Positions 2,796 through 12,809 of a DNA stretch of 21,871 bases are shown piece after piece. The notes below the pieces were generated by a model, which saw only the letters and a program-made list of their open reading frames with translations, did not search any database and had not been told where the DNA came from. Made by a program: the position numbers and the translations under genes. Positions within the stretch are counted from its first letter, which is position 1. The number at the start of each line of letters is the position of its first letter. Source of the stretch: a virus; IMG/VR virus record IMGVR_UViG_3300024475_000067, positions 1 through 21,871 of that record. The stretch is one strand, 5' to 3'.

Positions 2796-3755
2796 CTACC
2801 AAATCCACAGTTCAATGTAACCGCCACGCCCAGCTTCCGGCTGGATGCTGCCGCCAAGGGTTGTGGCAGTGCCACCAGCACCAAGAGCATATGTCAAAAC
2901 TTCACCGCCGACTGATGCGCCGGTAACGTATGTTTGCACCAACACACCATTTCCACCGTCTTGGCTTTGCCCATCAAAGTTGTTTGTGGTTGTCCGACCA
3001 CCCGCTGCGCCAGCATTGTAAAGAATATCACCACCAGCCGATGATGAACCTACATTCGTAAACCAGTTAGTTGTGTCGGTTCCAGCCCCCATATTGGTTC
3101 CGTGTGGCCCACCAGCCGCAGTGATGGCGATTGATAGCGTTGCGTTTGTGACCGTTGTTGTGCCACCATCGCCACCTACTGTTACACTATTTAGTCCAAG
3201 CCCACCAGTCGCTGGGTTAGCGTGTACTGAGCCTCCGCCGCCGCCGCCGGATGCTTTAATTAAAATAGCCTGTGCGTTAGCTGGAATTGTGTAGCTTGTA
3301 CCGCTTGTTAGCGTTGTTATGACTTGCGGATAAGAAGAAATAGTCGAAAACTCAAAGGCACCAGAGCCGTCACTGACTACAGCCTGACCAGCAGTGCCGG
3401 AGCCGCTTACGTCTAAGTTAGCCTCGGCCACCTTAGTCCAAGATAATGTGCCTGACCCATCTGTTGCCAAAGCCTGACCAACAGAGCCAGCACCGTCTGG
3501 CAGGGTAAGCGTGGTTGTTGTAGTGACCGTTGCTGGGGCTTGGAGCTTTATAGAGGCGCTTGCGTCATCATCGTGCAGGTTTAGTACATCAATGCCGCTA
3601 GTGCCGTCTGAGAAGTCTTTTAGGTGCTTCATCTGCTGCCGAATTGAGTTGTTCAAGTCGGATGGAACCATTACGCCTTCTGACAGATTGATACCGTCAA
3701 TGTCTGTGTTTGAAGCAGCGGCTGCGCTGTACTCAGAAATTTTAGTCTTTGGCAT
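2796..3755 (-). CDS. Tail fibre protein with glycine-rich tip
   Basis: This is a 319-residue fibre-like protein. Residues 1-50 match the N-terminus of the next gene (SEYSAAAASNTDIDGINLSE, later LNNSIR and HLKD), which points to a common attachment site on the virion. Two related motifs, SVGQALATDGSG and TAGQAVVSDGSG, sit 30 residues apart at 91 and 121. From about residue 165 (AILIKASGGGGGG) the protein is Gly/Thr/Asn-rich up to a hydrophobic C-terminus (GYIELWIW). Glycine-rich distal regions are known from receptor-binding tips of some tailed phages; that role here is inference. The start is supported by AGGAG six bases upstream of the ATG. A 42-base gap with no clear hairpin separates it from the upstream gene. 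Confidence 0.87.
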   Translation of the reverse strand: MPKTKISEYSAAAASNTDIDGINLSEGVMVPSDLNNSIRQQMKHLKDFSDGTSGIDVLNLHDDDASASIKLQAPATVTTTTTLTLPDGAGSVGQALATDGSGTLSWTKVAEANLDVSGSGTAGQAVVSDGSGAFEFSTISSYPQVITTLTSGTSYTIPANAQAILIKASGGGGGGSVHANPATGGLGLNSVTVGGDGGTTTVTNATLSIAITAAGGPHGTNMGAGTDTTNWFTNVGSSSAGGDILYNAGAAGGRTTTNNFDGQSQDGGNGVLVQTYVTGASVGGEVLTYALGAGGTATTLGGSIQPEAGRGGYIELWIW

Positions 3756-8648: not shown

Positions 8649-8940
8649 TGTGTCCCTGATTGTCAAAGTTAATAACCATGGTTCCGTCTGTGCTAGTGTT
8701 GTCAATCCAAGGATTGTGGTGATATGGGCTGTGGCCGTATCCAGTAAAAATCACAATACTTTCAGTCGAAAACCTAGGGTCATCGTGGCTTACTTGTGTG
8801 CTGTTGGCAGGTAAAGTCACATAACCAACGCTGTTTAAACCGCCATTAATGGTACGGTTTAGCACCTCGGCAACCTCACGCGTTGTCGCTGTAATAGGAT
8901 TCAAAATCCTAAAGTTTGATGTACGTTCGTGAATAGTCAT
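8617..8940 (-). CDS. Conserved beta-rich phage protein next to tail hub
   Basis: This 107-residue protein has its ATG at 8940 in an ATGA overlap with the stop of the tail-hub gene, implying coupled translation. The sequence is rich in beta-formers: VGYVTLPANSTQVSH, then DPRFSTESIVIFTGYG, and a C-terminal TMVINFDNQGHNARFAYLII. The pattern DPR-S-IVIF followed by a terminal N-FAYLI(I)G resembles a family of small hypothetical proteins found after tail-hub or fibre genes in many short-tailed phages (from memory). No catalytic residues stand out. A structural or receptor-side tail role is a guess from context. Both ends overlap neighbouring genes. Confidence 0.72.
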   Translation of the reverse strand: MTIHERTSNFRILNPITATTREVAEVLNRTINGGLNSVGYVTLPANSTQVSHDDPRFSTESIVIFTGYGHSPYHHNPWIDNTSTDGTMVINFDNQGHNARFAYLIIG

Positions 8941-10388
8941 CGTCTGCCTATCTGCCGCGCTTCAATGTCTACACCAACAACTTTACTCCAGCCGTTTGAT
9001 AAAACAAGTTTTGCTCTATGATAACGGCCTTGAGACCTAAGAGGAGCAAACCCATCATTATTGGGCGCTATTGCGCTGCCGTAAGAGTGAGTAGCCGACT
9101 GCGTGTCTCTTGTACCAATAGCTATGGTTACATCGCCATCTTCATAGTAAGGATAGGCTCTAGTAACTATTGAGTGCTTGCCCATACTGAGTGGAACCTC
9201 TCCAGTTTCAATGGTGCCAATCAAAGGCGCACCAGAAAATGTGTAAATTTTATCACCATAAGCGCCGCCAAAGAAATACTGGCCACCTTTGAAAAAACGG
9301 CTATCTAACTGAATAGATAAACCATCAACGGTACCAGATAGATTGTCTAAGCCCTCAACGGTATAGCCAGAAGAAAAAAGAGGGGCTAACAAATCAGCCT
9401 CGATTTCAGCCAAAGACCATTTGTTCAAAACATAGTTGTACATAATAATTTTGTCAGGCTGGCCGGTTGGTGACTGTGTGCTGGTGTAGCTCCACATAGC
9501 CACCTCATTTAGCGGGTCTACACTGGCTGACATTCTGTAATCATAGTTACTGTCAAAGTCCTTAAGGAAAAATTCGTTTACACGTTCCGAACCAATAGAA
9601 GATAATTTTTGACCATCAAATGCGTAAAACCCATCTGAAGCCAAGAAAAATACTAAATTGCCGCTGTTGCAGACAGAACCACTAAAAGCGCACCCACGCT
9701 CAGACACAACCTTGTCAAACTGCCAGATTAGGGGCGGGCCTGTGTATGTGGCTCGGTAAATAGCTCTTTCTGTTAAAATTACGCAATACTCACCGCCGAC
9801 TAAACCAGTGATTGCGCCCGAGTCTGGCAAATCTTGAAAGTCAGCCTGGTCTACGCCTGGTGTCCAGCTTGTGATGTCGTTAAATCCAGACCACTGACAG
9901 CGGTAAGGTATTCGGCCTGACCCAGTGTCCACGTTTGCCGTCCAAACAAAGTCACGCACTACAGCAAGAAAATCAGACTTCGGCGCATTTGTCAGGTCTG
10001 CAAATACAGAGCTTGCGCCTAGCTGAAATGATTGCAGCGTCTCACCAATCCCGCCGGAGCATATAGCGTAATCTCCAAACTGAATAAAGCGCCACTTCTC
10101 GTTGTTTGTTAGTGTGTACCCGCCAACCTTACTAATATCGTCTAAGTTGTTTGTTGTCGCATTGTGCAAGTAAAGCTTTGTGGCATCACCAGCGAATAAC
10201 TTTGTGTTTGACGCAGTATCTTTAGCCGCAAAAATGCCTTTAATCGTCCCTGTAGCTGCGTTTGAGTAAGGCACAAAACCACTCATAGAGTGATAACCCT
10301 TAGCTGCTGGTAACACGTTTGTGGCCACAGTTACGCCTGCGTTCATTGTGTCAGCTTGGTCTGGTGTCCATTGCCCTAGTTCTATCAT
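8937..10388 (-). CDS. Tail hub / DNA-stabilisation protein, P22 gp10-like
   Basis: This 483-residue protein starts at an ATG (MIELGQWTPDQADTMNAG) that overlaps the upstream stop as ATGA. A TTG 12 bases upstream would add MGKA and is less likely. The N-terminal part (proline/aspartate-rich approach, then NVLPAAKGYHSMSGF) and the long beta-rich body with segments such as SGFNDITSWTP, ITGLVGGEYCVILTERAIYR and ASDGFYAFDGQKLSSIGSER resemble the P22 gp10 / packaged-DNA stabilisation family. That family forms a hexameric propeller-like hub closing the portal vertex. The position after the adaptor and before ejection and fibre genes fits this role. The assignment is by overall pattern; no single catalytic motif exists to confirm it. 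Confidence 0.82.
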   Translation of the reverse strand: MIELGQWTPDQADTMNAGVTVATNVLPAAKGYHSMSGFVPYSNAATGTIKGIFAAKDTASNTKLFAGDATKLYLHNATTNNLDDISKVGGYTLTNNEKWRFIQFGDYAICSGGIGETLQSFQLGASSVFADLTNAPKSDFLAVVRDFVWTANVDTGSGRIPYRCQWSGFNDITSWTPGVDQADFQDLPDSGAITGLVGGEYCVILTERAIYRATYTGPPLIWQFDKVVSERGCAFSGSVCNSGNLVFFLASDGFYAFDGQKLSSIGSERVNEFFLKDFDSNYDYRMSASVDPLNEVAMWSYTSTQSPTGQPDKIIMYNYVLNKWSLAEIEADLLAPLFSSGYTVEGLDNLSGTVDGLSIQLDSRFFKGGQYFFGGAYGDKIYTFSGAPLIGTIETGEVPLSMGKHSIVTRAYPYYEDGDVTIAIGTRDTQSATHSYGSAIAPNNDGFAPLRSQGRYHRAKLVLSNGWSKVVGVDIEARQIGRR

Positions 10389-11770
10389 TGCCTTGCCCAA
10401 ACCTCATTGCCAGTTGGTACTGCGCCCCAAATCTCTGAACCAACAGCAACGTCAGTCCAAGTTTCCGAGCCAATATCAGCATCAGTCCAAATCTCTGAAC
10501 CAACAGCAACGTCAGCCCAGACTTCTGTTCCAGACGCTACATCAATCCAGTCTTCGCCCAAAACGTGGTTATCTGAAACCGTTGTTATTGACGTTGTTAC
10601 ATTTGCATTATAAACGAATATACCACTAGATACAGCCGTTGTAGAGGTAGATACTTGGCCCTGCCCAGACATCACAAATAAAGCGTTGGATGATGCTGAT
10701 TCTGTGACAGACATTAACGCAGAGCCGACAAGCCCTCTTTTCCGGTCAACAGAACTTATCTGAGACACTGAAAGCAATACATTTCCAGTAACTTGCCTTA
10801 GAGGCTTCATAACAGCCGTTGCTGCGGCAGCGCCAGTTACTGAAGCCGACATCAACTCTATGCGATTAAAATTGGCATCAATAGAAGCAGAAACGCTTGC
10901 GGCTGCGCCAAACAAGTAAACAGCTTCTGCCGCACATACAGTAGACAAGTTGACGTTGCTAGCGGCTGTTAATTTTCTTTCCCGATTAATAAATCCAGAG
11001 CCAAGAACAACTATCTGAGGATTAGCTGTAGGCTGGGCTACTAGAATAGCGCCTGATTCAACAGAAGCAGTGACGCTTGCGGAACCCAACAAAAGTCTTT
11101 TGAGGCTCAAAGAGCAAGACGCGGAAGTGTTGATGTTTACTGCGGAGGCTGCAATAAATTCATATTTAGCTAACGCAGTAGAGCTAACAGAAATAGCTGC
11201 TATCGAATCAAATCGACCTTCAACGTAAGAGGCGCAAACAACCGAAAGGTTAACATTGATAAAAGAGTCAAAGAATTTTTTGCGTAGACAAACCCCTGTG
11301 CCAGAAACAGCTATCTGTTCAGCCGCGCTAGTTTCTTTGACGCGGTTTACAGAACTCGAAGCGGCTGTCGCAATGCTGGCAGAGCCAGAAAACTTTAATA
11401 TGCTATGAGGGCTTACCGCAACAGACAAGGCGGCATCAGCCGCACCAGCCATAACTAGCTCAGCCGCAGCGGCGGCTGATGAGTCGGCGGATATGTTTAC
11501 CGAAGCTCTAACAAAAAATTCAGCTATTTCGCCAGCAGCGGCTAAGGATATTGATGCGTTAGCGTTTGCAACAACAACGCACAATCTGTCAGAATTATCT
11601 AACTGCTCTAAAGTATAACCAAAACTGGCTATATACTCTAAGCTACCCCACGCATCTAGTTGCTCAAGCGTTGGATTACACCAAGGCAAAGCATCTAAAT
11701 TATCCAGACTAGCAGGCAGGTTATCTAAACTGCCTGATAGCTGTTCAAGTGTTGGGGTATTTGTAGCCAT
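10385..11770 (-). CDS. Tandem-repeat virion protein (20-residue and 10-residue arrays)
   Basis: This 461-residue protein is almost entirely periodic. Residues 7-58 carry three TLEQL(D) motifs (at 7, 34 and 53) with SLDNL variants between. From about residue 66 to 405 the protein is built of about seventeen 20-residue units rich in Ala, Ser, Val and Thr. Alternating small and beta-branched residues recur at fixed positions (for example GSASIATAAS at 129, GSASVTASVE at 229, AAASVSASID at 289). Residues 408-457 are five decapeptides beginning with Trp, such as WADVAVGSEI. This suggests an extended beta-solenoid or stacked-hairpin fibre. It lies directly before the tail hub gene (ATGA overlap), so a tail or vertex component is likely, but no function is known to me. 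No strong ribosome site precedes its ATG. Confidence 0.85.
   Translation of the reverse strand: MATNTPTLEQLSGSLDNLPASLDNLDALPWCNPTLEQLDAWGSLEYIASFGYTLEQLDNSDRLCVVVANANASISLAAAGEIAEFFVRASVNISADSSAAAAAELVMAGAADAALSVAVSPHSILKFSGSASIATAASSSVNRVKETSAAEQIAVSGTGVCLRKKFFDSFINVNLSVVCASYVEGRFDSIAAISVSSTALAKYEFIAASAVNINTSASCSLSLKRLLLGSASVTASVESGAILVAQPTANPQIVVLGSGFINRERKLTAASNVNLSTVCAAEAVYLFGAAASVSASIDANFNRIELMSASVTGAAAATAVMKPLRQVTGNVLLSVSQISSVDRKRGLVGSALMSVTESASSNALFVMSGQGQVSTSTTAVSSGIFVYNANVTTSITTVSDNHVLGEDWIDVASGTEVWADVAVGSEIWTDADIGSETWTDVAVGSEIWGAVPTGNEVWARQ
10400..10549 (-). repeat. Five 30-base repeats encoding a Trp decapeptide
   Basis: In-frame array at the 3' end of the repeat-protein gene, encoding five decapeptides that start with Trp (residues 408-457). 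Bases 10427-10455 and 10487-10515 are identical over 29 bases, 60 bases apart, indicating recent duplication or conversion. Confidence 0.85.
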
Positions 11771-11777
11771 TAGCTGA

Positions 11778-12164
11778 CTAGGCTGCCGTAATGTCTAAGT
11801 CACCAGCAGCTATTTTTAGGATGTCGCCTGTGTCGATAAGCTTGGCGGCTGTAAACGCACCATGAATAAGCAGATTGCCACCAGATACAGCGTCAAACAA
11901 ACCGAAATGGCTCACTGTACCCCAGCTTGCAGTAGCAGCAGAAAACTCAACAGCGCTAGTGTTGTCAGCAGTTCCAGCTATCGCTGCATCGAAGGCCATA
12001 ACCTTCCGAGTGTAGCCGTTTCCGGTTAGCTCAGTGCCGCTAGCGTCATCTCCAAATGAACCAGTAGACAACCCAATATAAATTGTTGACGGCATTGTAT
12101 ACGCGCCAGTTCCAAGGATATGGTCGAGAATCTCATTCTCTAAGTAATTACTCATTGCACTCAT
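11778..12164 (-). CDS. Small head-tail/tail structural protein, Gp80-like
   Basis: The protein has 128 residues. The sequence NYLENEILDHILGTGAYTMP then IYIGLSTG-FGDD-SGTEL-GNGYTRKV resembles a small phage structural family (annotated in actinophages as Gp80, from memory). In that family an N-terminal helix is followed by a beta sandwich opening with (Y/V)(I/V)(G/A)LST. Later strands include GLFDAVSGGNLLIHGAF and ILKIAAGDLDI. The first ATG at 12164 has GGAG nine bases upstream, inside the end of the adaptor gene; an ATG three codons later is the alternative. The position between adaptor and the repeat protein fits a neck or tail decoration role, which is inference. Confidence 0.8.
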   Translation of the reverse strand: MSAMSNYLENEILDHILGTGAYTMPSTIYIGLSTGSFGDDASGTELTGNGYTRKVMAFDAAIAGTADNTSAVEFSAATASWGTVSHFGLFDAVSGGNLLIHGAFTAAKLIDTGDILKIAAGDLDITAA

Positions 12165-12167
12165 AAT

Positions 12168-12809
12168 CTATTTCTCCGCTGTTGCATTCTGCCTCATGTA
12201 GACAGATTTGGTTTGTAGTGAGCCAGTACCGTAGTGTGAACGCTCCTCATCAATACGCACTTCATTTATACCACGAGTGAACTTTTCATCATACTGTGCT
12301 GCTCTTTGCTCATCTAGCAAGTAAGCATATGCCTCAGTCAAAGCGCCGTACAAATACAAATCAGGAGAGCGCAAAAACAATGTCGGTGTGCTAACTGCTG
12401 AAATTGCGTCTACATTCCCGATATAAACAATCTCCGCTGTATAAGCACTGTCAGGCACTGGACGCAACTTCATTTCCTTCCCGACAATGCTGTATCCTAA
12501 AGGCTTGCCCAGACCGTTACCAGAGTATGTTGTGTCTAGTGATGATGGACTTGCATAGTTAAGAACTGTAATCGGGCTTGTATTTAATTTTACTTCACGC
12601 ACTTCACGCAAATCTGTAGGCAAAGATATGTACTCATCTCCCGCAACAAGAGTTGCTGTAGAGCGTTTTTCTTGCTCACGAGTTTCTAACTCTCGGTTAA
12701 TTCGTGCTTCAGCAAGCTGAATAAAATCAGGAATAACTGAAGACAAATCGTTTCTAGCAAGAAAGTTCTCAATAGCCGTTTGCAGTTGTGCGTAAGAAGA
12801 AATAGCCAT
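12168..12809 (-). CDS. Head-tail adaptor protein, SU10 adaptor-like
   Basis: This 213-residue protein shows the pattern of the podovirus adaptor placed under the portal. The N-terminal helices are YAQLQTAIENFLARNDL and VIPDFIQLAEARINRELETR. A beta segment follows (ISLPTDLREVREVKL, with later MKLRPVPDSAYTAEIVYIGN). A C-terminal helical part holds LYLYGALTEAYAYLLDEQRA and a basic-acidic tail. The SIPDFI-LAE-RINRELR signature followed by LP-D-RE is typical of the SU10-type adaptor family. The adaptor binds the portal ring and provides the platform for the tail hub. The ATG overlaps the upstream stop as TAATG. Its neighbours (capsid upstream, tail genes downstream) agree. Confidence 0.86.
   Translation of the reverse strand: MAISSYAQLQTAIENFLARNDLSSVIPDFIQLAEARINRELETREQEKRSTATLVAGDEYISLPTDLREVREVKLNTSPITVLNYASPSSLDTTYSGNGLGKPLGYSIVGKEMKLRPVPDSAYTAEIVYIGNVDAISAVSTPTLFLRSPDLYLYGALTEAYAYLLDEQRAAQYDEKFTRGINEVRIDEERSHYGTGSLQTKSVYMRQNATAEK

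Follow-up and report, generated by a model that had tools for sequence, protein, structure and literature searches.

A 20-residue-repeat protein as a probable rope for gp80 beads in the tail fibre of a marine phage

A 461-aa protein encoded in the window (the whole 21,871-nucleotide stretch of viral DNA that was analysed) is built around seventeen units of 20 residues, differs from its relatives by whole units, and is encoded between a homologue of the phage fibre protein gp80 and a tail nozzle. In unrelated podo-, sipho- and myophages, gp80 homologues were also associated with proteins that carry 20-residue repeats but are otherwise dissimilar. Because the rod changes in steps of 20 residues, gp80 is adjacent and the same bead is paired with other repeat proteins elsewhere, this protein probably serves as both rope and ruler in the tail fibre of a marine phage, holding gp80 beads and setting fibre length by its number of units. 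From these observations we infer gp80 binding and copy number, the ruler role, the docking end and orientation of the protein, and its presence in the virion.

The repeat protein and its relatives

The following features were assigned to the repeat gene.

10385..11770, minus strand: ORF of the repeat (rope) protein, 461 aa, with relatives in IMG/VR
11576..11770, minus strand: N-terminal segment, residues 1-65, with LDxL/LEQL motifs; candidate virion anchor, a putative role suggested by invariant alignment columns
10556..11575, minus strand: rod spanning residues 66-405, made of 17 units of 20 residues each, from period tests
10388..10561, minus strand: C-terminal Trp ladder, residues 404-461, from invariant Trp columns in alignments A2 and A3
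10427..10549, minus strand: DNA tandem repeat of 60 nt (equal to 20 residues) within the Trp ladder, present in 2 copies (77%), from Tandem Repeats Finder

The initial annotation had described a 20-residue period between residues 66 and 405 (10556-11575), and this period was significant when the region was compared with itself. Using BLOSUM62, the z score was 6.0 at lag 20, 3.9 at lag 40 and 6.1 at lag 60, against a top z of 4.55 at any lag in 1,000 composition-keeping shuffles. Lag 20 was at or near the top in each half of the rod taken separately, and a second script, run on the window ORFs of 90 aa or more on the minus strand, ranked it first only in the repeat ORF (z 9.0). The number of units, previously estimated at about 17, is exact, as the rod measures 17 × 20 residues without drift. 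Pairs of units shared a mean identity of 16% at the amino acid level and 35% at the DNA level, which supports the earlier view that structure, and not similarity of the DNA, maintains a beta-type period. Tandem Repeats Finder identified no DNA repeat within the rod, its sole result being the 60-nt repeat of the Trp ladder, so the description of the units as having little DNA identity was also right. Of the Lys and Arg residues in the rod, 17/20 occupied unit positions 18-20 and 1. The protein matched none of the Pfam, PHROG or NCBIfam families above cut-off, and a scan of genome contigs with the repeat family returned no match. The initial annotation knew of no assigned role, but the adjacent gp80 homologue points to one as the rope of a bead-and-rope tail fibre.

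Both end segments, and the variation in length among relatives, are additions to that annotation. The N-terminal segment contains the motif string TLEQL..GSLDNLP..LPWCNPTLEQLDAWG..FGYTLEQLD and holds many of the most invariant columns in alignments A1 and A2. At the other end, the ladder consists of LGEDW followed by a Trp every 10 residues, giving six in total (W408, W418, W428, W438, W448 and W458).

Relatives were collected from IMG/VR, with 37 found in one search and 80 loci listed in another. A comparison of unit number across related phages, as the initial annotation had suggested, revealed that the rod is gained or lost in whole 20-residue units, with 3, 7, 8 or 17 units present; natural versions of the protein include ones of 162, 239 and 461 residues. 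The distance from the N-terminal anchor to the first Trp of the ladder was 123, 183 or 201-203 residues in one subfamily and 66, 146-147, 168 or 345 residues in the other, values that fit 20-residue steps to within about 2 residues. The ladder itself had either 4 or 6 Trp residues, never 5, in all proteins measured. Two relatives showed further differences. In the first (L083:1-1929, plus strand), the rod was interrupted by ~210 residues carrying no repeat; this insertion had no match to a Pfam family or, by PDB sequence search, to a solved structure, and its lectin-like appearance was judged by eye only and is not claimed here. The second, a protein of 488 aa (L004:3899-5362, plus strand), had 27 additional N-terminal residues resembling a duplicated LDxL segment.

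Genes beside gp80 homologues

Three neighbouring genes on the same strand could be assigned.

11778..12164, minus strand: gp80 homologue, candidate bead (PF23140, E 5e-44; PDB 8jou_a, E 3.1e-12)
8937..10400, minus strand: tail nozzle (PDB 8zkk "nozzle gp16", E 8.5e-21; PHROG 3287); the program placed the ORF start at a TTG at 10400, not at the ATG
12168..12809, minus strand: SU10-type tail adaptor (PF24175)

PF23140 is named "Podophage GP4 fiber I protein gp80", and the gene that matches it lies directly upstream of the repeat gene. Downstream, the nozzle ATG (10386-10388) overlaps the stop codon of the repeat gene (ATGA); the match to 8zkk bears out the earlier placement of the repeat gene just before the tail hub. 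Among the relatives, the order fibreI-repeat-nozzle was found in 159 loci and fibreI-repeat-contig end in 15, counts that are not independent because some loci represent one contig with different flanks. Fourteen loci lacked a gp80 gene directly upstream; 12 of these start on or close to the end of a contig, and the remaining two are in the named phages MW202481 and Venkman, where other tail genes intervene. Elsewhere in the window, two proteins (551-2785 and 2796-3755, both minus strand) carry an N-terminal podophage tail-fibre motif (EYS..AASNT..EG), and conventional fibres are therefore probably encoded as well.

Genes adjoining gp80 homologues in unrelated phages were all scored with one lag test. 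Lag 20 ranked first or second beside gp80 in MEP401 gp59, phiM5_18, Ochrobactrum phage OH p46, BcepIL02 gp56 (z 8.0), DC1 gp54 and the mycobacteriophage proteins Vincenzo gp31 and Megabear gp25, the last of which had first been entered as a control and was later seen to lie directly upstream of a gp80 homologue. The same was observed for the N-terminal parts of Lietuvens ORF27 and PVJ1_58. For CRP-4 gp54 the highest score was at lag 8, with lag 20 reaching only z 2.8, and many gp80 neighbours were ordinary tail fibres without the period. Vincenzo gp31, a minor tail protein (L201:2821-3978, plus strand) encoded directly upstream of the gp80 homologue, gave z 9.1 at lag 20; its 20-residue repeats lie within the N-terminal half, ahead of a glycine-rich domain (PF21722).

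Across gp80-anchored loci, lag 20 was on top with z ≥ 4 in 51/112 proteins encoded by the next gene, versus 23/758 at other distances. After gp80 was clustered at 60% identity (21 clusters), positives numbered 11/73 within two genes and 0/84 farther away (Fisher p 1.4e-4, for a near/far split picked after the distribution had been seen). Counted by protein cluster, lag-20 positives were 4/20 at position +1 versus 5/207. A lag of 20 is not diagnostic in its own right, because a tail-fibre protein of Pelagibacter phage HTVC106P (L190:6111-7982, plus strand), with repeats of the ITTAKI type, shows it with no gp80 in the stretch examined. A mixed gp80 alignment contained no stretch conserved enough for scanning. 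Profiles of residue class along the unit, compared across the candidate ropes, gave p values of 0.01-0.03 for three and 0.13-0.8 for the others; as a common unit profile was mostly not significant, no claim of rope homology is made. Judged by their sequences, the repeat proteins beside gp80 have a period in common rather than a demonstrated common origin.

Comparison with known fibre systems

The arrangement in the window resembles that of fibre I in the Ralstonia podophage GP4 (gp80; PDB 8jou), with a gp80-family gene adjacent and adaptor and nozzle genes around it. The GP4 study reportedly named a rope protein and described fibre I with five gp80 dimers, a number in agreement with the 10 gp80 chains contained in 8jou. 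GP4 gp80 is a dimeric fibril that connects an adhesin to the nozzle collar (PMC13243795). In BcepIL02, a Bcep22-like relative, a 20-residue repeat protein lies between homologues of two 8jou proteins. This protein, gp56, has ~10-11 units as counted by eye, compared with the 10 gp80 chains of 8jou, and shares its period with the window protein (z 8.0 and z 6.0, respectively). Using phmmer, BcepIL02 gp56 had no match at E ≤ 5 among the window ORFs, and it matched no rope chain in the PDB. No homologue of 8jou_D, a candidate fibre-tail adaptor, was found among the window ORFs, the 21,871-base record possibly being a fragment. The repeat protein would probably work in the manner of the GP4 fibre, as a likeness of mechanism rather than a membership shown by sequence.

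In phage JC1, virion mass spectrometry identified gp53 (the gp80 homologue) and gp55. JC1 gp54, whose best match is DC1 B862_gp29, a homologue of the BcepIL02 rope candidate, was absent from the JC1 virion mass-spectrometry list, which speaks against the rope explanation.

The neck fibres of Anabaena myophage A-1(L) (gp82-gp81-gp80) are also like the proposed fibre in that they are extended and bead-like, with five per virion projecting from the neck. Unlike the proposed fibre, their beads are gp81 trimers that N-terminal hairpins link head to tail, and no repeat rope has been described for them. The name gp80, common to A-1(L) and GP4, is assumed to have arisen by chance from the gene numbering.

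A further comparison was provided by phages LSH1 and Slicko01. LSH1 gp35 matches 8JOU_g, the dimeric fibril protein of GP4, and in LSH1 gp34 and proteins related to it there are long stretches of beta structure that were unexplained by the authors and perhaps repetitive (PMC13243795). If the rope model is right, stretches like those of LSH1 gp34 should carry the 20-residue period. This prediction was made beforehand, and in Slicko01 WGH49683, taken as a relative of LSH1 gp34 by its size and neighbours rather than by alignment, lags 20 and 40 reached z scores of up to 11.3 and 12.6 over approximately residues 960-1720. Two genes on from WGH49683, WGH49681 had a weak match to PF23140 (E 0.0036, below the curated cut-off). 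In LSH1 (gp34-gp36) and Slicko01 (WGH49683-WGH49681), as in the window, a gp80-like protein adjoins one whose long beta region is poorly predicted, and in Slicko01 a region of ~750 residues has the 20-residue period. These two phages differ from the window in that the repeats are fused to a large N-terminal adhesin- or lyase-like part and that gp80 is matched weakly.

Fold, alternatives and the proposed fibre

The AlphaFold model of the window protein had a mean pLDDT of 44 and was set aside as uninformative. For a relative of 276 residues, AlphaFold predicted strands of 6 and 10 residues alternating with two-residue turns (pLDDT ~60-78). Searched against PDB folds, this model gave nothing at E ≤ 0.001 (best E 0.52), and a BFVD search gave three matches at E ≤ 0.001, all to viral proteins listed in the output without an assigned function. 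Profile searches of the PDB with alignments A2, A3 and A4 produced matches at chance level. A "poor beta helix" was seen by another group in AlphaFold models of a protein from a gp80-type module (PMC13243795), and because of this similarity the solenoid prediction is not to be trusted here. Of the beta-solenoid or stacked-hairpin rod initially proposed, the beta-type period of 20 residues thus stands, but the fold was not established by a model of pLDDT 44 and a best PDB E of 0.52. The modelled protein may take the form of a solenoid, a hairpin stack or an extended strand bound to gp80.

A less likely explanation, though one that deserves some weight, is that the protein forms a self-standing beta-solenoid or stacked-hairpin shaft of a fibre or spike and merely adjoins gp80, with the N terminus docking, the rod projecting, the Trp ladder at the tip, and gp80 belonging to a separate appendage. 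The regular strand pattern modelled for the relative would suit such a shaft, as would the tail-fibre genes that other phages have in the adaptor-nozzle interval, and the ~210-residue insertion noted above is something that a fibre shaft bearing a domain might have. However, no solved fold was matched, the window model says nothing on the matter, and a free shaft does not account for the presence of unrelated 20-residue repeat proteins next to gp80 homologues in several types of phage.

A head- or neck-associated protein, or a length ruler inside the tail, appears improbable. gp80 homologues are often annotated as "head protein" (PHROG 240), but the Pfam model calls the family a fibre protein, the GP4 protein is a fibril (PMC13243795), and in mycobacteriophages and a Sporosarcina phage the pair is found among minor tail or baseplate genes. 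It is most improbable that the period is a product of low-complexity composition lacking structural meaning since, even with Ala and Ser at 35% of the rod, composition-keeping shuffles fell short of the observed z and neither the whole-unit length steps nor the positional Lys/Arg would be expected.

In the rope explanation that we favour, gp80-family proteins from the adjacent upstream gene would be threaded as beads on a beta-rich chain composed of 20-residue units, whose count would determine bead number and hence fibre length. The LDxL segment and the Trp ladder would be the two end pieces, one for attachment to the tail near the adaptor and nozzle and the other for capping or carrying a payload. 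A broader proposal is put forward tentatively, at odds somewhat short of even: across podo-, sipho- and myophages, gp80 beads could sit on ropes that share a 20-residue unit length and little sequence, with the number of units, which ranges from 3 to 17 in the window family, acting as a genetic ruler for bead number and fibre length.

The rope explanation offers a testable role for a class of Ala/Ser repeat proteins without a family model, and a possible reason for the unpredictable beta regions that others have met beside gp80-like proteins. If it is true, fibre length should change stepwise with the number of 20-residue units.
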